DNA of 42,400 bases, taken from assembly GCA_944388995.1 (NCBI GenBank), contig CALXKN010000017.1:1-42400 (forward strand), written 5' to 3'. Shown here piece by piece: positions 14,570 to 38,685 of the stretch (position 1 is the first letter of the stretch; each line of letters starts with the position of its first letter). The notes beneath the pieces were generated by a model. The model saw nothing but the letters and a program-made list of their open reading frames with translations. It did not search any database and was not told where the DNA came from. The DNA comes from an uncultured Spirochaetota bacterium. Its GTDB lineage: Bacteria > Spirochaetota > Spirochaetia > JAFGXN01. The translations under genes and the position numbers were made by a program.

Positions 14570-15547
14570 TTATTCGATTTCAACCAATCGGTATTGACGA
14601 CTGCCGAGGTTGATTTTTGCCGCGTGGTCAAGCGTGTGCAGGCCTTGGCGGCTTTCAATGCGTTCTTTTAATGCCGCAGAGTCTTCGGCTGCATAGACCA
14701 TGTCGATAGCGGCTTGGTCGGCTGCCAGCGGATCAAGCGAAGCGACGATGCCGATGTCGTGCATGTCCGGTTCTGCCGGATTTCCGTTGCAGTCACAGTC
14801 GACGCTCAGCCGATTGAGGACGTTGATGAAAGCGATGTTTTTTCCCATGGCGTCACACAGACCTTTGGCAGCTTCGGCCATCGACTCCAGAAAGGCGATT
14901 TGATCGCCGCTGATGGAACCGTTTGTCGTTTTTCCGCCGGAATGGATGTAGACTTTGCCGCTTTCGAAATCTCCCCAACCGCTGCCAAATCCGATTGAGA
15001 GGTTTTTGATTGCTCCGCCGAATCCGGCCATGGCGTGACCTTTAAAGTGGGAGATGACCAGATATGAGCCGTAGTTGTTGAAATGGCTGCCGACAATGTG
15101 TCCTTTTGTCAGGTGTTCGGCGCCTTCAATCGGCAGATAGACGACGTCTTTTTCGTCCAACAGATCAAAGTCGGCGATTTTCGTAAAGCCGTGTTCTTCG
15201 GCGACTTTGTGATGTTCCGCATTGGAATTGCGGCGGCCCGGATAGGCGGTTTTGCACTCGACAATCACGCCGTCAACGGCCTTGACCGTCTTTTCCAGCA
15301 GTGCGGGGCGCAGGTAATTGGATGCGGGCGGTTCGCCGGTGCTGACTTTGACGCCGGTTTTTCCTTCCGGTTTCCAACCGAGGGCTTCGTAGACTTTCAA
15401 CATTCCGTCGGCGGAAATGTCCTTCGTGAAATAGACCACCGGAGCCGATTTGTCGTCGGTTTGGTGGGGCAGTTTTTCTTGAGAAAAGGCTGTTGCACAC
15501 GTGAAGAGGAGCGCCGCTCCCATCAATAAATGCAGAATTTTTTCCAT
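14570..15547 (-). CDS. Secreted DUF362 protein, last gene of the lar operon
   Basis: 325 residues with a Sec-type signal peptide (MEKILHLLMGAALLFTCATA) and one DUF362 domain, function unknown. Landmarks: NAEHHKVAEEHGF (109-121), SHFKGHAMAGFGGAIKN (166-182), CDC (251-253), DIGIVASLDPLAADQ (264-278) and a C-terminal AAKINLGSRQY. Unlike the DUF362 protein at 29276 it lacks the inserted ferredoxin domain. H112, H171, K181 and H202 are possible counterparts of the LarA active-site His108, His174, Lys184 and His200. The start at 15547 has AGGAG ten bases upstream and begins the signal peptide. It follows the small membrane protein gene by only 13 bases, so it belongs to the larEBC transcript. Candidate enzyme or binding protein for the pincer cofactor (inference). 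Confidence 0.85.
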   Translation of the reverse strand: MEKILHLLMGAALLFTCATAFSQEKLPHQTDDKSAPVVYFTKDISADGMLKVYEALGWKPEGKTGVKVSTGEPPASNYLRPALLEKTVKAVDGVIVECKTAYPGRRNSNAEHHKVAEEHGFTKIADFDLLDEKDVVYLPIEGAEHLTKGHIVGSHFNNYGSYLVISHFKGHAMAGFGGAIKNLSIGFGSGWGDFESGKVYIHSGGKTTNGSISGDQIAFLESMAEAAKGLCDAMGKNIAFINVLNRLSVDCDCNGNPAEPDMHDIGIVASLDPLAADQAAIDMVYAAEDSAALKERIESRQGLHTLDHAAKINLGSRQYRLVEIE

Positions 15548-16288: not shown

Positions 16289-17584
16289 TTATTCTGTTTC
16301 CGCCTTTCGGAAAAGGCCGGTCAGTTCCGCATAAACGTCGCCGAAGCGTTTGCCGGTCCGACGGCAGACGGCAGCGACACTCTCGTATTCGGGAGAAAAC
16401 CGAGTCTCCCCTGCAAATTCCGTCATTTTTCCTTTAATATCCCCGTATGCCGAAGGGATGACGACCGCTTTCCGTTCAAGAACGGTTCGTTCCGCTTCAA
16501 ACCGCCGCACGCCGATGGTATTTGTGTGTGTAAAAAGAATTTCTTCCATAGCGGCGGCCTGCTCCCGACGGCAAAGAATTTTCAGCAGAAAACCGGGGCG
16601 GTTCTTTTTCATGTAACACGGAATCGTACAGACATCCAAAGCGCCGGCTTCAAACAGCCGCTCTGCCGTAAAGCCGATCGCTTCGCCGGTTGTATTGTCA
16701 ATATCGGTTTCCATCTGAATGATCCGTTCGTTCTCTGAGTGTGAGTTTTCCTCAATTATAAATGCTCTCAAAAAACTCGGACGCCGGTAAGTTCGTTTTC
16801 CGGCTCCGTTGCCGATTTTAACAACTTTCATGAGAGTCGGCCGCGCATATTCATCGGCGACGGCGGCTGCAATCGCCGCTCCCGTTGGGGTAACAAACTC
16901 GCCGCGCTCCGGAATGATTTGCAGCGGAATTCCGTAACGCAGCGCCGTTTCGGCGACCGCCGGAACAGGAACCGGCAGGATACCGTGCTGGCAGCGGACG
17001 GTTCCCGTTCCTTCGCATAAATAAGGAATATAAACTTTTTTGATTTCAAGCGAATCAAAACAGACGGCAAAAGCGATGATGTCGACAATTGAATCGACAG
17101 CACCGACTTCGTGAAAAGCGACGTTTTCGGCAGAGGTTCCGTGAACCTTCGCTTCGGATTCCGCTAAAACGGTAAAAATTTTCTTTGCCAGCCGCCGCGC
17201 GCCTTCGCTCATCTTCCCTTCATCGATAACGGCAAATATCTCTTTCAATCGGCGATGCTCGTGGTGATGCGTATGTCCGTGTCGGTGTTCATCTTCATGC
17301 GCATGTGAAGCGAGCTCCGTTTCTCCGCTGTGTTCGTGACCGAAGAGGTATTCCATATCGTGATCTCGGTTCTCGTGTTTTTCGTCTAAAATGACGTTGA
17401 AATCGCAGCAGTCGACACCGCCTTTAACGGCGCGGCCGATTTCTACCGAAAATCCGCCGATCGGCAGCGAATCTAAGGCATCGAGCAGAACTCCTTGATC
17501 CGCTCCGGCATCCAACAAGGCAGCCACAGCCATATCGCCGCAGATTCCGGTGTGGCATTCAAAAAGCAAACTCCGACCGTTCAT
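16289..17584 (-). CDS. larC: LarC, nickel insertion enzyme for the pincer cofactor
   Basis: CTP-dependent cyclometallase that inserts nickel into the pyridinium bis-thiocarboxylate mononucleotide made by LarB and LarE. 431 residues cover both LarC1 and LarC2 in one frame; in Lactobacillus plantarum the full protein needs a programmed frameshift. N-terminal FECHTGICGDM, a histidine-rich stretch (H70-H110, about thirteen histidines) suited to nickel storage, FHEVGAVDSIVDI, then C-terminal METDIDNTTGE and DVCTIPCYMKKNRPG. The start at 17584 has a purine-rich GGAGAGGGGG site and an ATGA overlap with larB. The frame is open further upstream only as an antisense/shadow extension. Confidence 0.95.
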   Translation of the reverse strand: MNGRSLLFECHTGICGDMAVAALLDAGADQGVLLDALDSLPIGGFSVEIGRAVKGGVDCCDFNVILDEKHENRDHDMEYLFGHEHSGETELASHAHEDEHRHGHTHHHEHRRLKEIFAVIDEGKMSEGARRLAKKIFTVLAESEAKVHGTSAENVAFHEVGAVDSIVDIIAFAVCFDSLEIKKVYIPYLCEGTGTVRCQHGILPVPVPAVAETALRYGIPLQIIPERGEFVTPTGAAIAAAVADEYARPTLMKVVKIGNGAGKRTYRRPSFLRAFIIEENSHSENERIIQMETDIDNTTGEAIGFTAERLFEAGALDVCTIPCYMKKNRPGFLLKILCRREQAAAMEEILFTHTNTIGVRRFEAERTVLERKAVVIPSAYGDIKGKMTEFAGETRFSPEYESVAAVCRRTGKRFGDVYAELTGLFRKAETE

Positions 17585-18261
17585 CCGTTCCCCCTCTCCG
17601 CCAAACGTTTGATTTGAGAAGCAATATATCCGGCTCCGTACCCGTTGTCGATATTGACGACGGAAACACCGTTTGCGCAGGAGTTGATCATTGTCAGCAG
17701 CGCCGCCACTCCGCCGAAGTTGGCTCCGTACCCGACCGATGTCGGAACCGCTATCACCGGCACGGATACCAATCCGCCGATAACACTCGGCAGCGCGCCT
17801 TCCATTCCGGCAACCGCAATAACGCAATCGGCCGCCTTTAAAACCGACTCTTCGGCCAGCAAACGGTGCAGTCCGCTGACGCCCGCATCAAAAATACGCC
17901 GAACACGGCAGCCGAAAAACTCTGCTGTCCCCGCCGCTTCCTGCGCAACGGGAATGTCAGCCGTTCCTGCCGAACAGACGATGATATTCCCTGTCTGTTT
18001 CTTTTCTTCGCTTTGAATTGTCAACAAGCGGGAAACCGCATCGTAACGGACTTCGGGCAAAACGGCTTTGACCACTTCAAACTGTGCCGCTGAAGCCCTT
18101 GTGCCCAAAACTTCGCCGTTTTTTTCGTAAAGCCGCTTGAAAATTTCCCGCAAAAATGAATCTTCTTTCCCCTGACAAAAAACTGTTTCGGGGAAACCGG
18201 TTCGCTCTTTCCGCCCCGTATCCAACCGAGCAAATCCCAAATCTTCAAAGCCGCTGTCCAT
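17581..18261 (-). CDS. larB: LarB, carboxylase/hydrolase of pincer cofactor synthesis
   Basis: Carboxylates the pyridine ring of nicotinic acid adenine dinucleotide and releases AMP, the first step of nickel-pincer nucleotide synthesis. 226 residues with the PurE-like AIR carboxylase fold in the C-terminal half: VCSAGTADIPVAQEAA, RIFDAGVSGLHRL, VIAVAGMEGALPSVIGGL, PVIAVPTSVGYG and the C-terminal SCANGVSVVNIDNGYGAGY with the conserved cysteine. Overlaps larE by 17 bases and larC by four, so translation is coupled. Confidence 0.95.
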   Translation of the reverse strand: MDSGFEDLGFARLDTGRKERTGFPETVFCQGKEDSFLREIFKRLYEKNGEVLGTRASAAQFEVVKAVLPEVRYDAVSRLLTIQSEEKKQTGNIIVCSAGTADIPVAQEAAGTAEFFGCRVRRIFDAGVSGLHRLLAEESVLKAADCVIAVAGMEGALPSVIGGLVSVPVIAVPTSVGYGANFGGVAALLTMINSCANGVSVVNIDNGYGAGYIASQIKRLAERGNG

Positions 18262-19078
18262 TCTTCAGAACCTCGTTTAAACTTCCCGAACGGAATCCTT
18301 CCCAATCGACCGAAACGTAAACAAAGCCGATCTGTTTCAGCCGCGTTACCGCCTCTTCCCGCCTTTCAGCCAACAGACGCCAATCGGAGGGATCACACTC
18401 AATCCGAGCCAAACAACCGCCGTGGAGGCGCACTCGGCAGCGGTCGATACCCAATCCAAACAGATACGTTTCCGCCTCTTCGATCATCCGCAGTTTTTCA
18501 ACGGTAATCGTCTCTCCATACGGAATGCGGGAGGCTGAACACGCCGATGACGCTTTATTCCACTGCGCCATTCCCGCCCGCCGCGCCAGGAAACGGATTT
18601 CGTTTTTGGTGAGTCCGCATTCAAGCAGCGGACTGCGGATGCCGGCCTCCGTCAACGCCTTCAACCCCGGTCGGTAGTCGTTTTCGTCATCGGCGTTGGT
18701 GCCTTCGCAAACGGTGCCGAGATCGAGTGCGGCGGCAACGGTTCTGATTTTTTCAAACATCAGCCGCTTGCAAAGATAACAGCGTTCCGGCGGATTGCCG
18801 GCAAAAACGGAGAAATCCTCTTCCGTCAAAGAAACGGTTTCTCTGCGGACGCCTTCATTGCGGCAAAACTCCGCCGCTTCCAGTGCCTCTCGTTTGGGAA
18901 AAAGCGGCGATTCAACGGTAATCGCCGTCACATTTCCTCTCAAAACTTCCGATGCCGTCTTGAGCAAAAAAGCCGAATCAATTCCGCCGGAAAAGGCGAC
19001 CGCGACTCGATTCAACTGTTTCAGCAGTAATTTCAACTGTGCTTGTTTTGTCTCAGCCGCGTTGATGTCTGTTTCCAT
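18245..19078 (-). CDS. larE: LarE, ATP-dependent sulfur transferase of pincer cofactor synthesis
   Basis: Adenylates the LarB product and installs the two thiocarboxylates. 277 residues with a PP-loop (FSGGIDS, 29-35), EGTNADD (125-131) and SACSASRIPYGE (178-189), where C180 corresponds to the sacrificial Cys176 of L. plantarum LarE. Further cysteines C214, C222 and C228 lie in DRCRVRLHGGCLARIEC near the C-terminus. Some LarE proteins use a [4Fe-4S] cluster instead of sacrificing a cysteine; the extra cysteines leave this possible. ATG 19078 is chosen over GTG 19081, since AAGGA is seven bases upstream and TGATG overlaps the GNAT stop. Confidence 0.95.
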   Translation of the reverse strand: METDINAAETKQAQLKLLLKQLNRVAVAFSGGIDSAFLLKTASEVLRGNVTAITVESPLFPKREALEAAEFCRNEGVRRETVSLTEEDFSVFAGNPPERCYLCKRLMFEKIRTVAAALDLGTVCEGTNADDENDYRPGLKALTEAGIRSPLLECGLTKNEIRFLARRAGMAQWNKASSACSASRIPYGETITVEKLRMIEEAETYLFGLGIDRCRVRLHGGCLARIECDPSDWRLLAERREEAVTRLKQIGFVYVSVDWEGFRSGSLNEVLKNGQRL

Positions 19079-19608
19079 CACGATTTCCTTGCCGTCATTG
19101 TATCAAACGGAAATTGATTTGGCAAATACTTTGTTTCTATTGCGGAAAATGCCTGCAAGGAATATTGCCGGCTGATCGGCTTTCTCAAAACAATCATGTC
19201 GACAAGACGCTTGCCCTCCTCCCAAATAGGAAAAGTGTATTCGTCCGGAAAAAAGTTACGGATGCGGCGAAAAAAGACAAAACCGTTTTTTTCGTAAAAA
19301 GAGAGCGTCGCCCGACTCTCCCCCGTGCCGACTTGAAGCAGCGAAAACGCCTCGGCAAAAAAATTGCCGACAAATTCAATCATGGCGCTTCCGTACCCGC
19401 AGCGGCGAAACTGAGGGGCGACGGCAAGGTTCTTGATTTCCAAAACGCCCCCGCCCTCATCGGTGACGACGCAAACCGCATCGCCTCCGTTTAAGACAAA
19501 GAGGCGCCCCCGATTCAAGTAACGGTCAATCATCCGCTCCTCTTCGTCTGCTTGAAGCAAAATCGGTAAAAACCTCTTCTTGGCGGAAGCAATTTCCGTA
19601 ATCGTCAT
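19078..19608 (-). CDS. GNAT family N-acetyltransferase
   Basis: 176 residues. The acetyl-CoA-binding motif A is clear (VAPQFRRCGYGSAMIEFV, about 67-84), followed by LSFYEKNGFVFF, the usual motif B. The substrate cannot be read from sequence. The C-terminal ~25 residues (SRQYSLQAFSAIETKYL onward) extend past the domain. Coupled by overlap to the genes on both sides (ATGA with the preceding gene, TGATG with larE). It could act on a ribosomal or other protein, or on a small molecule. Confidence 0.85.
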   Translation of the reverse strand: MTITEIASAKKRFLPILLQADEEERMIDRYLNRGRLFVLNGGDAVCVVTDEGGGVLEIKNLAVAPQFRRCGYGSAMIEFVGNFFAEAFSLLQVGTGESRATLSFYEKNGFVFFRRIRNFFPDEYTFPIWEEGKRLVDMIVLRKPISRQYSLQAFSAIETKYLPNQFPFDTMTARKS

Positions 19609-29275: not shown

Positions 29276-30424
29276 ATGAACCGACAGGACAAACGCCAAC
29301 CTTCCGAAGTGTTTTTTACCGACTTCCGCTGCCAAACGGATGAAAGCCCCTGCGACAAACTGAAACGGCTGATCAAAGCCGCAGGAATCGGCAGTATCGA
29401 TATGGAAGGCAAGTTTGCGGCCATCAAAATGCACTTCGGGGAACTGGGCAACATGAGCTTTCTCCGCCCCAACTACGCAAAGACGGTCGCCGACACGGTA
29501 AAGGAGCTGGGCGGTAAACCCTTCCTGACCGACTGCAACACCCTGTATCCGGGCAGCCGCAAAAACGCCATCGAACACCTGTACTGCGCCTGGGAAAACG
29601 GCTTCACGCCGCTGAGCGCCGGCTGCCCGGTGATTATCGGCGACGGTCTGAAAGGCACCGACGACATTGCTGTTCCGGTTTCAGGCGGCGAATACGTGAA
29701 AGAAGCCAAAATCGGACGCGCCGTAATGGACGCCGATATTTTCATCTCGCTGACGCACTTCAAAGGCCATGAAATGACCGGCTTCGGCGGCGCGATAAAA
29801 AACATCGGTATGGGCTGCGGCTCCCGCGCGGGAAAAAAAGACCAGCACAGCAACGGACAGCCGGAAATCAGCGAAGCCGCCTGCCGCGGCTGCCGCCGCT
29901 GTCTGCGGGAGTGCGCCAACAACGGACTCCTCTTCGATGAACAGAAAAAGAAGATGACGGTCAACTATGACAACTGCGTCGGCTGCGGCCGCTGTATCGG
30001 CGCGTGCAACTTTGACGCGATCGCGTTTGCGCAGAACGCCGCGGTAAAAGAACTGAACTGCCGTATGGCGGAATACGCAAAAGCCGTTACGGACGGACGC
30101 CCCTGTTTCCACATTTCGGTGGTACGCGACATCTCGCCCGTATGCGACTGCCACGCGGGAAACGACGCGCCGATTCTGCCGGACGTCGGAATGTTCGCTT
30201 CGTTCGATCCCGTCGCCCTTGACCGGGCGTGCGCCGACGCGTGCCTGCGTCAAAAACCGCTGCCGGACAGCCGGCTTGCCGAAGCGATGGCCGCACCCGG
30301 TTTCCGGGATCGGCGCGACCACTTTGACAACGCGAACCCGAACACCGAATACAAAAGCTGCCTTGCCCATGCGGAAAAAATCGGTCTCGGCACCCGAGCC
30401 TACAAAACGGTTTCGGTTCCGTAA
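29276..30424 (+). CDS. DUF362 protein with inserted 2[4Fe-4S] ferredoxin domain
   Basis: 382 residues, no signal peptide, cytoplasmic. DUF362 landmarks: KMHFGELGN (51-59), TDCNTLYPGSRKNAIEH (85-101), THFKGHEMTGFGGAIKN (160-176), CDC (290-292), DVGMFASFDPVALD (303-316) and HAEKIGLGTRAY near the end. Between them lies a bacterial ferredoxin with C203, C206, C209, C213 and C234, C237, C240, C244, i.e. two [4Fe-4S] clusters. H101, H165, K175 and H191 match LarA active-site spacing (10 and 16 residues for the last three). The function is unknown; it suggests electron transfer to or from the DUF362 active site. The ATG at 29276 has AAAGGAG upstream; the longer frame from 29192 covers the promoter. 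Monocistronic, ending 13 bases before repeat copy B. Confidence 0.9.
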   Translation: MNRQDKRQPSEVFFTDFRCQTDESPCDKLKRLIKAAGIGSIDMEGKFAAIKMHFGELGNMSFLRPNYAKTVADTVKELGGKPFLTDCNTLYPGSRKNAIEHLYCAWENGFTPLSAGCPVIIGDGLKGTDDIAVPVSGGEYVKEAKIGRAVMDADIFISLTHFKGHEMTGFGGAIKNIGMGCGSRAGKKDQHSNGQPEISEAACRGCRRCLRECANNGLLFDEQKKKMTVNYDNCVGCGRCIGACNFDAIAFAQNAAVKELNCRMAEYAKAVTDGRPCFHISVVRDISPVCDCHAGNDAPILPDVGMFASFDPVALDRACADACLRQKPLPDSRLAEAMAAPGFRDRRDHFDNANPNTEYKSCLAHAEKIGLGTRAYKTVSVP

Positions 30425-34063: not shown

Positions 34064-35197
34064 TTAACGAAAGGTAACGGTCACGCCCTGATTCACCGGG
34101 TATCCGTTCCCTTTATCTTTGCTCCACGTTTCATCCCAAAAGGACTTTTTGGAAGACGGCAGTGTAACGGTAATGGACGCCTTCCCGCTACTATCAGACT
34201 CATCCTCCTTCTGGTAGCCGACCTGAAGTCCGTAGTAGGTCGCCGCTCCCGATGTTTCGGATGAAATTAACTCTGTCTGATTCGATAAATCCAGTTCTCG
34301 AATATAATTAAACTCCAGATTGACTCTTTTTAATTTTTTATTTTCGCTCAAATCGACTGTTTGCAAATTTTGATAGGCGGCATTTAAAATTTCGATTTCG
34401 GAAAAAAACGCAATTCCCTGCAAATTTTGAATTTTTGTTGAGACCCAGTCCCACTCCAAATTCAGTTCCGTAACCTCATCCGCTTCCGCCCGGGACACGA
34501 TTCCGTCATTGTCCGTATCAAATTTTTTCAGCACGTCACGGAATGCCGCATCGGGAACATCTTTCTCCAGATTCAGGCTCTCCGGTACCGGCGCGGTGAC
34601 GGTCACCGTCCACGAAACGGAAACCTCACTGTTGTCGGCCGAGACGGCGGTGACGACAGCGGTACCGGCAGAGGCGGCGGTCACCGTTACGGACATTCCG
34701 GTTGCGGCACTCAGCGTGACGGCTCCGTTATCGACGCTCCAGTTCACGGCAGGGTTTGAGGCATCCTCCGGAACGACGGCGACACTAAATATCTGCGTTC
34801 CGCCGACGGTAAGAGAAACCGGCTGATCGACTGCCGGAGTCGGCGTCAGTCCCGTTACGGGTTTTTCTTCCGGTACCGGCTCGGTGACGGTCACTTTACA
34901 GACAGCCGTCAGACTTTTATTTTCGGCAACGACCGCTTTCACTTCGGCTTCCCCGGCAGCTATTGCCGTCACTTTTCCTTCTTCCACCGTAACGATTGTT
35001 TCATTCGAACTTTCCCAAAGAACTTTCTGAACCGCCTGCTCCGGCAAAACCGCAAACGTCAGTTCTTCCGTTTTTCCGATTTCCAAAGTCACCGACGAAG
35101 GTCGGATCTCGATACCGGTTGCCTTCACCGGATCCGTTACCGGATCGCAGGAAGCCAACATCCATACAGCAGCAATACAACTGAAGATCTTTTTCAT
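34064..35197 (-). CDS. BIG2 lipoprotein with LRR-like C-terminus (third of three)
   Basis: 377 residues. Lipoprotein signal peptide MKKIFSCIAAVWMLASC (lipid at C17). Two BIG2 Ig-like domains (about 25-205), an EF-hand-like DTDNDGIVSRAEA linking to a short leucine-rich segment (LNLEWDW, LQTVDLSENKKLKRVNLEFN, LRELDLSNQTEL type), and a C-terminal segment VTLPSSKKSFWDETW shared in form with the two upstream genes. Likely surface-exposed adhesin-like protein. AAAGGAG precedes the ATG; the frame extends to 35269 only through the 3' end of the upstream gene. 19 bases separate it from that gene. Confidence 0.85.
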   Translation of the reverse strand: MKKIFSCIAAVWMLASCDPVTDPVKATGIEIRPSSVTLEIGKTEELTFAVLPEQAVQKVLWESSNETIVTVEEGKVTAIAAGEAEVKAVVAENKSLTAVCKVTVTEPVPEEKPVTGLTPTPAVDQPVSLTVGGTQIFSVAVVPEDASNPAVNWSVDNGAVTLSAATGMSVTVTAASAGTAVVTAVSADNSEVSVSWTVTVTAPVPESLNLEKDVPDAAFRDVLKKFDTDNDGIVSRAEADEVTELNLEWDWVSTKIQNLQGIAFFSEIEILNAAYQNLQTVDLSENKKLKRVNLEFNYIRELDLSNQTELISSETSGAATYYGLQVGYQKEDESDSSGKASITVTLPSSKKSFWDETWSKDKGNGYPVNQGVTVTFR

Positions 35198-35216
35198 TTT
35201 TCGCTCCTTTCCTATA

Positions 35217-37556
35217 TTATTCTCTGACAAGAGTGACGTTGTAATTGGAACCGTTCCGACTCCATTCATTATCCCACCTCTCCCATAAAGAAGAAGGCAG
35301 ATAAAGAGTGACTTTTTTTAATCCCTGATATCCGCAGACCAGATTCTTCAATGCCGAATTCGAACGCAAATCGAGCTTTTCCAAAGAATTGCCGTTGCAA
35401 ATCAGCGTTTCGAGTTTCGAATTCATCGAAGTATCCAGATCGGTCAAATATCCGCCGCTGCAGTCAAGCGAGAGCAGATTCGGCATCAGCTCCAGACCGT
35501 ACAGCGCGGATGCCGCGGCAACCTCCAGTCCGGAGACGTTTTTCAGGTCGTCTTCGGTGAAGTTCTGTTTGCCGGTCGCGAGGGCAACGGCATCGAACAG
35601 CGCTCCTGCGGGAATCAGTTCCTTACGAACCGTGACCTTGCAGGTTGCTGTCACTCCGGAAGCGTCTCCGGCGGTCGCTTTCACCGTAAACATGGCCGCG
35701 CCGGCATTTGAATTGACACTCAGAAGACCGTCGTCCGAAATCGTTGCCGGCACATCGCCTCCTTCGAGACTCCATGTGACGGTTTTAACAGCGGCGTTGG
35801 GCGGTTCGACGGATGCTGTCAGACGGTAACTTTTTCCTTTATAAAGGTTCACACTCTCCCGATTCAAAACAATTTTTGTGACGGCTGCCGTTGCCGGAGA
35901 GACGGTGACAACACACGAGGCCGATGCCCCGAAGCCGTCGGCGGCGGTCGCCGTTACGGTAGCGGTTCCGGCTTTTAACGCGGTTACGGTTCCGGTTGCG
36001 TCATCCAATGAAACAATGTTTTCGGGTGAAACACTCCATTTCAGCCGTTTGTCTGTCGCGTCGCCGGGCGTCACCGTCGCACTCAAAACGAAATCGAGGC
36101 CGACTTCGAATCTTTCCGGAGCTGCGGGGTAAACTGAAGGATTCAGCGTAATCTGCGTGACGGGAGAAATCACCGTCACTTCGCATTCATCGTAAACTCC
36201 CGGATTGGAAACCGATTCGGCGCGAACGGTTGCCGTTCCGGCGTTCAGTGCGGTCACTGTCCCATTCTCAACAGAGACAATCCCGTCGGGAACGGCTGTC
36301 CACCGGACGTTGCGGTCAGTCGCTTCTTGCGGTTCGACCGCAGCGGTCAGGGTTGCCGTTTTGCCGTCTTCGGTCAGCGTCAGCTGCAGGCTGTCGCGGT
36401 CCAACCGGACGGCGGTGACAGCCTCCCGAACCGTGACGGTACAGCTGTCCGTTTTGGCAGCATCGGATCGCGAGGTAACCGTTACGGTCGCCCTTCCCGG
36501 ACCGAGCGCCGTCACTTCTCCCGTATCGGCATTGACGGAAACGACATCGGCCCCCTCTGTGACACTCCAAACCACTGTTTTCTCTGAGGCATTCGGGGGA
36601 TTGACCGTACAGGTCAGCTGTTTTGTCTCTCCCCTGAACATCGTAACGGTTTCGCCTTCGTTAATTGCAACCGATTCGACAGCGGCACTGCCCGCGACAA
36701 TGTCGATTTTGATCTCCGCCGTGACATCGGCAGGGTAATCGGGGTTGTCGAACGGGTGCAGCGAAGCCCGCACGGTAACGGTACCCGGTGCGTTGGCCGT
36801 GACCGTGCCGTCCGCAGCGACAGCGGCGGTTTGCGGATCGGACGTTGCCCAGAAAACGGTGCCGTAAGTCGGCTCTCCGGAAACGGTCGCCGTCAGCGCA
36901 AGCGTCAGCCCGGCCTCCAACCCGGCGGCAGCCTCGTAACCGTCGGCCGTTATCGTCACCTTTTCCGCTGCCCGGTAAACCGTCACGGAACAACTGTCGC
37001 TGTACCCGCCTTCCGCGGTAGTCACCGTCACCTGTGCCGTACCGACAGCAACCCCTTTCACGATACCGCGGTTGGAATCTTCAAGCGTCAGGACATTTTC
37101 CTTCCCCTCTTCGACCGTAAACAAAACCGTTTTCACGGAGGCATCGGTCGGCAGAACCGCATAATTTAAACCGACTTCTTTTCCCACCGGAACCGGAAAC
37201 GTCTCCTCGATTCGGACTCCCGTAACGTCCGTTTTGCCGATAACGGTTATCAGACAGGAAGCCCGGTAATTTCCGTCGGTCGTGACAGCTGTCACGGACG
37301 TCTCGCCGGCGGCTTTGGCCGTTACCACTCCGGAAGCGGTCACGTCGGCAACAGCCGGATTTTCCGATTCCCACCGGACAGTTTTATCGGCTGCCGTTTC
37401 GGGCACAACAGCGGCTTTCAGCGAAACCGTCTTCCCCGTCTCCAGTGTCACCGATGCAGGCGTTACCGTTATTCCGGACACTTTTGCCGAATCCTTTTCA
37501 CAGCTTGCCAAAGCGAGCAGCAAAACCATTCCCCAACAGCGAACAAAGATTTTCAT
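35217..37556 (-). CDS. Large BIG2 repeat lipoprotein (second of three)
   Basis: 779 residues. Signal peptide with lipobox LASC (lipid at ~C19). Seven consecutive BIG2 Ig-like domains of ~80-90 residues, each with the W/V..GxVTAxxxGxATVT core, form a ~600-residue stalk. A leucine-rich region with cysteine at the repeat consensus (LLSLDCSGGYLTDLD, LETLICNGNSLEKLDL) and the C-terminal LYLPSSLWERWDNEW module follow. Probable surface adhesin or matrix protein. GAGGAGG precedes the ATG at 37556. The repeats are diverged at DNA level, so I see no exact long duplications. Confidence 0.88.
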   Translation of the reverse strand: MKIFVRCWGMVLLLALASCEKDSAKVSGITVTPASVTLETGKTVSLKAAVVPETAADKTVRWESENPAVADVTASGVVTAKAAGETSVTAVTTDGNYRASCLITVIGKTDVTGVRIEETFPVPVGKEVGLNYAVLPTDASVKTVLFTVEEGKENVLTLEDSNRGIVKGVAVGTAQVTVTTAEGGYSDSCSVTVYRAAEKVTITADGYEAAAGLEAGLTLALTATVSGEPTYGTVFWATSDPQTAAVAADGTVTANAPGTVTVRASLHPFDNPDYPADVTAEIKIDIVAGSAAVESVAINEGETVTMFRGETKQLTCTVNPPNASEKTVVWSVTEGADVVSVNADTGEVTALGPGRATVTVTSRSDAAKTDSCTVTVREAVTAVRLDRDSLQLTLTEDGKTATLTAAVEPQEATDRNVRWTAVPDGIVSVENGTVTALNAGTATVRAESVSNPGVYDECEVTVISPVTQITLNPSVYPAAPERFEVGLDFVLSATVTPGDATDKRLKWSVSPENIVSLDDATGTVTALKAGTATVTATAADGFGASASCVVTVSPATAAVTKIVLNRESVNLYKGKSYRLTASVEPPNAAVKTVTWSLEGGDVPATISDDGLLSVNSNAGAAMFTVKATAGDASGVTATCKVTVRKELIPAGALFDAVALATGKQNFTEDDLKNVSGLEVAAASALYGLELMPNLLSLDCSGGYLTDLDTSMNSKLETLICNGNSLEKLDLRSNSALKNLVCGYQGLKKVTLYLPSSLWERWDNEWSRNGSNYNVTLVRE

Positions 37557-37587
37557 AAAACTCCTCCTCAATACGATTCGATGGTTT

Positions 37588-38685
37588 TCATTCTTTAATA
37601 AGGGTCACCCAGGTGTTGGCCGTTTCGGCAGGATATCCGTCCGAACCCGGCTTTCCCCACGTTTCGTCACTCTCCCATCTGTCCCACAACGATCGGGGCA
37701 GATAAAGAGAAAGTTTCAAATTGTACATTCCTTCCGCTTCGTTGATCTGCTGTCCGCACCAGAGAAAATCGAGATTCGGACAGTTTCGGGCATCGAGCCG
37801 ATCCATGTAATTATTGTAGCAGCTTAAATGAATCAGCTTCGGATTACGGGAAACATCGAGCGATCCCAGACGATTTTGCGAACAGACCAGATATTCCAAT
37901 TCCGGCAAACCGGTCAGATCCAGCTTTTCGAGTCGGCATTCCCCGGCATCAACCGTAACAAGAAACGGGTTTGCTTCGAGACTCAACTGTTTCAGCGTAT
38001 TGCCTCCGCAGGAGACCTCCGTCAGCAGCGGATTTCCGGAAAGATCGAGCTCTCTTAAACGATTATCAAAGCAGTAAAGACGACGCAGTTTCGAAAGCGA
38101 CCGCAAATCGAGAGATTCGATTTTATTGTAGTGACACGCCAATTCTTCCAGATTGACAAAATATTCGAGACCGGTCAAATCGGCAATCTTTTCTTCCGAT
38201 GGTGTGTTTGACAGTTTGTAGCAGTGAATCACCGTAACCGTTTCCGCCTCTTTTAATGTGATAATGCCGTCCGCATCGAGATCGATCTGTTTCTCTCCCG
38301 TTTCCGAATTTTCGCCGAAAAGAGAAAACAGATAGGAGCGGAAAAGCGGATCGGGAATGTAAACCTCATCGGCCACCGTCACCCGGCACTGCTGCCGAAA
38401 ACCGCCGTCAACCGTCTCGGCCGTCACGGTCGCCGTTCCCGGCAAAACCCCGCGAATGCGGCCGTCCGCAACGGAAACGGTTTGCGGGGCATCGCTCGTC
38501 CAGCGGATTCCCTTTTCGCCAGCCTCCCCTGGAAGAACCGACGCATTCACCGTCTGTTCCTGCCCCAGCTTCAAATTCAGTTCCGTGCGGTCGATTGTTA
38601 AACCCGATACCGCCGCCGGTTTCCCGGGACAGGAGACAAAGATCATGGCCGCCAATAAAACGATTCCTTTAAAAAACAGTTGCAT
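37588..38685 (-). CDS. BIG2 plus leucine-rich-repeat lipoprotein (first of three)
   Basis: 365 residues. Signal peptide with lipobox FVSC (lipid at C19). One BIG2 domain (~25-105), an EF-hand-like DLDADGIITLKEA, then six to seven ~21-residue leucine-rich repeats of the form LxxLxCxxNxLxxLDLSxNPxL, with cysteine at a fixed position, and the C-terminal LYLPRSLWDRWES module ending WVTLIKE. AAGGAG before the ATG. First gene of the lipoprotein operon, behind a TTGACA promoter and a palindrome. Confidence 0.88.
   Translation of the reverse strand: MQLFFKGIVLLAAMIFVSCPGKPAAVSGLTIDRTELNLKLGQEQTVNASVLPGEAGEKGIRWTSDAPQTVSVADGRIRGVLPGTATVTAETVDGGFRQQCRVTVADEVYIPDPLFRSYLFSLFGENSETGEKQIDLDADGIITLKEAETVTVIHCYKLSNTPSEEKIADLTGLEYFVNLEELACHYNKIESLDLRSLSKLRRLYCFDNRLRELDLSGNPLLTEVSCGGNTLKQLSLEANPFLVTVDAGECRLEKLDLTGLPELEYLVCSQNRLGSLDVSRNPKLIHLSCYNNYMDRLDARNCPNLDFLWCGQQINEAEGMYNLKLSLYLPRSLWDRWESDETWGKPGSDGYPAETANTWVTLIKE

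Follow-up and report, generated by a model that had tools for sequence, protein, structure and literature searches.

A DUF362 protein with an inserted 2[4Fe-4S] ferredoxin, its kinship to LarA and its possible cofactor

The DUF362 protein P0001 of an uncultured Spirochaetota bacterium raises the question whether a ferredoxin-bearing relative of the racemase LarA uses the nickel-pincer cofactor (NPN), or whether the same scaffold serves a different chemistry. An earlier note on this locus had matched four residues of P0001 by their spacing to H108, H174, K184 and H200 of LarA; these numbers agree with the literature, which gives both numbering and roles and has K184 and H200 holding NPN (PMC11770544). 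About 15% of surveyed genomes make NPN without LarA, the client there being not known (PMC11796402). DUF362 and LarA had already been placed in one Pfam clan, CL0471 (PMC11770544), and one publication used DUF362 as an outgroup for LarA. A literature search found no function for DUF362, and the retention by DUF362 of the NPN-holding lysine and the nickel histidine was not found in the literature searched.

Gene setting, ferredoxin insert and fold of P0001

The window, i.e., the whole stretch of 42,400 nucleotides that was analysed, is one complete contig of a 1.93 Mb genome (98% complete). The genome encodes only two DUF362 proteins, both within the window:

29276..30424, plus strand: P0001, DUF362 protein with an inserted 2[4Fe-4S] ferredoxin (382-residue open reading frame, Pfam match, AlphaFold2 model, LarA fold)
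29882..30007, plus strand: 2[4Fe-4S] ferredoxin insert of P0001, C203 to C244 (Fer4 matches, similarity to clostridial ferredoxin 1fdn)
30143..30151, plus strand: CDC motif of P0001, C290-D291-C292, shared with the exported subtype that lacks a ferredoxin (alignments)
14570..15547, minus strand: DUF362-1, without ferredoxin, with the His/Lys/His trio and CDC, LarA fold and a hydrophobic, signal-peptide-like N-terminus, directly downstream of larC

P0001 was assigned to DUF362 (PF04015) with 190.1 bits (E 5.9e-56), above the Pfam gathering score of 24 bits, and the profile search placed a Fer4_7 match (E 2e-9) nested inside PF04015. No whole-length NCBIfam family was found for P0001, the ferredoxin parts alone being matched. 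In contrast to the other copy, its N-terminus is not hydrophobic, and P0001 is therefore probably a soluble, cytoplasmic protein, as the earlier note had assumed. The subtype usually occurs once per genome, and no conserved gene neighbour was identified among 80 loci, which fits a stand-alone enzyme. An operon context was considered and rejected, as the high neighbour-cluster counts were produced by shadow open reading frames of the gene itself. A search of plasmids returned three records only. Elsewhere in the window (34064-38685, minus strand), three adjacent lipoprotein-like open reading frames, in which bacterial Ig-like segments recur and the tails are leucine-rich-like, probably encode surface proteins, to judge by their sequence.

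The insert comprises two CxxCxxCxxxC motifs (C203/206/209/213 and C234/237/240/244). Fer4 matches and cysteine positions agree on its location between K175 and the CDC motif, where it had been placed before. All eight cysteines are invariant in 81 of 81 ferredoxin-insert sequences, and residues 195-252 of the model superimpose on 1fdn with Z 9.2 and an rmsd of 1.2 Å over 55 aligned residues.

The AlphaFold2 model of P0001 (pLDDT 92.4, pTM 0.90) was compared with the PDB by Foldseek, and all 12 LarA-family entries came out as its top matches (E down to 8e-8). In the VIA comparison with the LarA entries, Z ranged from 14.9 to 18.5 (17-18.5 for most) at an rmsd of 2.8-3.8 Å over 211-228 residues. 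The remaining strong matches were ferredoxins on residues 193-256, and outside the ferredoxin part no non-LarA structure in the PDB was comparable to the model. As judged by this model, P0001 has the LarA fold. A still cleaner picture than for P0001 was obtained with the model of DUF362-1 (LarA Z 13.6-15.8, next fold 4.5). When PDB sequences were searched with P0001 by phmmer and by profile, the matches listed were of ferredoxin type only, so the link to LarA is invisible to a plain sequence search of solved structures.

Counterparts of the LarA active-site residues

The residues bearing on the comparison with LarA are, all on the plus strand:

29768..29770, plus strand: H165, aligned with LarA His174, the catalytic acid/base (DUF362 alignment, hhalign, linsi)
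29798..29800, plus strand: K175, aligned with LarA Lys184, the NPN tether (DUF362 alignment, hhalign, linsi)
29846..29848, plus strand: H191, aligned with LarA His200, the nickel ligand (DUF362 alignment, hhalign, linsi)
29762..29764, plus strand: K163, invariant throughout DUF362, absent from LarA (alignment)
29834..29836, plus strand: K187, invariant throughout DUF362, absent from LarA (alignment)
29576..29578, plus strand: H101, invariant in the ferredoxin-insert and exported subtypes, not the positional equivalent of His108 (alignments)
29558..29563, plus strand: R95-K96, where the catalytic His108 of LarA falls in the joint alignment (K96 in 22/23 LarA; R95 invariant)
29465..29467, plus strand: R64 of the R64-P65 pair, which linsi, but not hhalign, places on LarA R75-P76

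On the 382-residue translation, H101, H165, K175 and H191 lie exactly where they had been reported, with gaps of 64, 10 and 16. The segment HEMTGFGGAIKNIGMGCGSRAGKKDQH of P0001 aligns without gaps to HFFAGFSGGRKSVLPGVASRTTVLANH of LarA, which puts H165, K175 and H191 on His174, Lys184 and His200; some LarA proteins read HLWAGFGGGMKNILPG and are thus nearer still to DUF362. The Lar_N profile (PF09861) matched residues 143-192 of P0001 (E 8.7e-4, 19.0 bits, not reaching the cut-off of 23.3), and the same profile stretch was matched by dozens of orthologues, a few of them just above the cut-off. As the gapless trio, the Lar_N match and the fold are three independent lines that agree, the match of the trio to LarA is homology, not chance. 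A chance origin of the spacing had been considered and was ruled out by this homology together with the shuffle rates: among 20,000 shuffled P0001 sequences, H-x9-K-x15-H arose in 1.3%, and with an additional His 65 ± 3 residues upstream in 0.12%. With hhalign the probabilities stayed low, at no more than 37%, small alignments and a lone template being poorly suited to calibration; its output was therefore used for the register only.

The fourth position fared differently. In the joint linsi alignment His108 falls on K96 of P0001 for 22 of 23 LarA proteins, and with hhalign on about Y91-S94. His108 is located in a GxHR loop that, according to the alignment, precedes a helix, and in the P0001 model H101 comes fourth in helix 98-107, 5-10 residues past these positions. 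H101 as the counterpart of His108 was thus rejected at the alignment level, and the similarity of the gaps, 64 versus 66, looks coincidental, as His108 falls on Y91-K96 and never on H101. Of the four-position match originally proposed, H165, K175 and H191 hold, and H101 is not supported by the alignments. H101 is nevertheless invariant in 81 of 81 ferredoxin-insert sequences and is also kept in the exported subtype, and therefore matters. The phosphate-binding Arg75 of LarA was placed on R64 by linsi but on about E56 by hhalign; R64 is kept in 81 of 81 ferredoxin-insert sequences scored and is nearly invariant in the subtype as a whole.

Ten residues (V12, K51, P65, K163, H165, K175, N176, G180, K187 and H191) are invariant in 34 DUF362 proteins of three subtypes, with identities down to 20%, and the trio is therefore a property of DUF362 at large. 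In the ferredoxin-insert subtype, CDC, R95, H53 and H161 are invariant as well. Variation in H101, H165, K175 or H191 was looked for and not encountered in any ferredoxin-insert sequence examined. Out of 101 such sequences, the four residues were scored in 37 whose genomes have LarBCE and in 34 whose genomes lack it, and both sets proved invariant.

NPN synthesis and the distribution of the ferredoxin-insert subtype

The window also carries a larE-larB-larC cluster (19081-16289, minus strand), which is followed by the DUF362-1 gene:

18245..19081, minus strand: larE (TIGR00268, E 7e-90)
17581..18261, minus strand: larB (NF033503, E 7e-87)
16289..17590, minus strand: larC, nickel insertion in the NPN pathway (profile search)

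The genome thus makes NPN. LarA is absent from it, the sole Lar_N match there being that of P0001 below the cut-off. Co-occurrence was determined in 247 genomes of the same phylum, 89 of which carry the ferredoxin-insert subtype, and in a second set of 50 carriers, mostly from other phyla.

LarC was found in 55 of the 89 carriers versus 30 of the 158 other genomes (odds ratio 6.9), close to the LarC enrichment of LarA itself (7.9), and after collapsing to genera the odds ratio was 5.1 (p 2e-5). Among LarA-less genomes of the phylum, 25 of 47 with LarC carried the subtype, versus 23 of 147 without, and full-strength LarA was missing in 18 of the 29 LarC-positive carriers of the second set. Genes for lar proteins occurred within 4 kb of the ferredoxin-insert gene at 3 of 80 loci, where about 0.2 were expected. 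At one of these loci (L183, 2814-7152), a larE/larC/larB cluster lies divergent from the ferredoxin-insert gene with 0.3 kb between them. Given this enrichment and these three loci, the subtype may use NPN, although the enrichment could also be due to a shared anaerobic lifestyle.

Against NPN use stands the number of carriers that lack the pathway. LarC was missing in 34 of the 89 carriers of the phylum, with LarB and LarE below the cut-offs wherever checked, and both LarC and LarB were missing in 21 of the 50 further carriers; overall, about 40% of carriers have no LarC. Among the carriers without LarC and LarB are Phocaeicola and Faecalitalea isolates and a Faecalibacterium whose chromosome is complete (L209). 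The ferredoxin-insert proteins of one LarBCE-positive genome (G153) and one LarBCE-negative genome (G086, 99% complete) are 99.5% identical. A strict dependence of the subtype on LarBCE was accordingly not found. As many carriers cannot make NPN and the residues are equally invariant there, NPN use by P0001 is doubtful, and our assessment leans negative.

Genomes without LarBCE can likewise harbour intact LarA, and the absence of LarBCE was therefore not accepted as excluding NPN. In the control, LarC was missing from 15 of the 53 genomes of the phylum that have LarA, and the LarA proteins read from LarC-less genomes keep H108, H174, K184 and H200. Intact LarA was observed in G111, G146, G206, G237, G016, G039 and G201 (L064-L067, L069, L070, L084), which lack LarC and have no LarB or LarE match above the cut-offs; cofactor salvage or another cofactor may account for it. 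Conversely, LarB, LarC and LarE but neither LarA nor any DUF362 were found in G182, G215 and G246 (L122-L124), where a further NPN client would be needed.

In four genera, among nine LarC-positive carriers, the gene of the exported subtype to which DUF362-1 belongs is no more than about 4 kb from larBCE: downstream in the genome of the window, G046 and G038, and upstream in G153. The subtype was also found without LarC, in 8 of 17 genomes. Adjoining larEBC, DUF362-1 is the sharpest candidate for an NPN client in the window and a better one than P0001; as it looks exported, loading with NPN would have to precede or follow its export.

Proposed function and relation to known systems

We consider P0001 to be, with a probability of about 0.5, a redox enzyme built on the LarA scaffold and wired through its ferredoxin, with a cofactor that in most carriers is probably not LarBCE-made NPN. 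It would be a soluble LarA-fold enzyme of the ferredoxin-insert branch of DUF362, which keeps the His174/Lys184/His200 site as H165/K175/H191 and adds invariant residues of its own (K163, K187, R95, H101 and the CDC loop). The trio is probably the binding site for a ligand, metal or cofactor. We infer from the architecture that the ferredoxin, spliced in shortly past H191, most likely moves electrons to or from this site; the chemistry would therefore be a net one- or two-electron reaction on a small molecule rather than the hidden-redox racemisation of LarA. This is in line with the earlier suggestion that redox chemistry is the likeliest meaning of the insert. That the cofactor is probably not LarBCE-made NPN follows from the protein being kept unchanged where LarBCE is absent. 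In a second DUF362 subtype a 2[4Fe-4S] module is located elsewhere, at the C-terminus, and redox coupling therefore looks like a recurring theme of DUF362. The exported subtype keeps the core without a ferredoxin, which is thus not essential to the core function.

Alternatively, P0001 may be a true NPN enzyme, with NPN on K175, H191 as nickel ligand, H165 as acid/base and the ferredoxin rendering the redox reaction net, and with larBCE supplying the cofactor in LarA-less genomes. The invariance in DUF362 of the counterparts of K184 and H200 would be explained, as would the larEBC genes in the LarA-less genome of the window, the LarC enrichment, the three loci near lar genes and the genomes with larBCE that have no assigned client. 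We nevertheless regard this as doubtful in view of the LarC-less carriers with identical residues, the position of His108 off H101 and the ambiguous alignment of R75. In addition, the trio occurs in the C-terminal-ferredoxin DUF362 protein of genus g37 (large, one-copy), where LarC is lacking and neither LarB nor LarE exceeded the cut-off in the five checked. It is likewise improbable that the DUF362 branch at large supplies the missing non-LarA clients of larBCE-positive, larA-negative genomes, with P0001 as a ferredoxin-wired NPN enzyme of net redox chemistry.

Many invariant His, Lys and Cys residues, among them C290 and C292 of the CDC loop in both the ferredoxin-insert and the exported subtype, together with the missing conserved pathway neighbours, would also suit a protein whose trio binds another metal or metallocofactor with CDC as loop ligands, carrying a metal or electrons or serving in maturation or repair rather than acting on a substrate. 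The kinship to LarA favours an enzyme, however, and the trio is found in the C-terminal-ferredoxin subtype together with another loop in the place of CDC, so that we hold such a role to be unlikely. Highly improbable is a vestigial LarA-like site in a fold that merely serves as ferredoxin scaffold: nothing direct speaks for it beyond the lack of a DUF362 function in the literature searched, and the non-cysteine polar residues checked are nearly all invariant in 81 sequences from several phyla.

DUF362 is a large family, and the kept Lys and His that hold the cofactor in LarA make its members concrete candidates for NPN clients. If the cofactor differs, as we favour for P0001, the LarA fold would support one further chemistry, probably coupled to ferredoxin and found widely in gut anaerobes; the ferredoxin-insert protein itself is a widespread anaerobe protein.

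Compared with known systems, P0001 shares with LarA (DUF2088/Lar_N, PF09861; 6c1w, 5huq, 6d6z) the fold, the gapless trio region and the clan CL0471, at 11-15% identity across the aligned residues. The ferredoxin insert, the CDC loop and the invariant K163 and K187 do not occur in the LarA proteins seen. P0001 is filed as DUF362 and not as LarA because its Lar_N score stays below the curated cut-off, the alignments disagree on Arg75 and do not place His108 on H101, and its carriers are often without LarBCE. The C-terminal-ferredoxin subtype has the DUF362 domain, the trio, K163, K187 and a 2[4Fe-4S] module as in P0001, but its ferredoxin is not inserted and it has neither CDC nor H101. The exported subtype resembles P0001 in the trio, the H101 column, CDC and the LarA fold; unlike P0001, it has no ferredoxin, most copies look exported, and it adjoins larBCE in the four genera. 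The clostridial 2[4Fe-4S] ferredoxin 1fdn finds its likeness in residues 195-252, which in P0001 form an insert within a larger enzyme-like domain.
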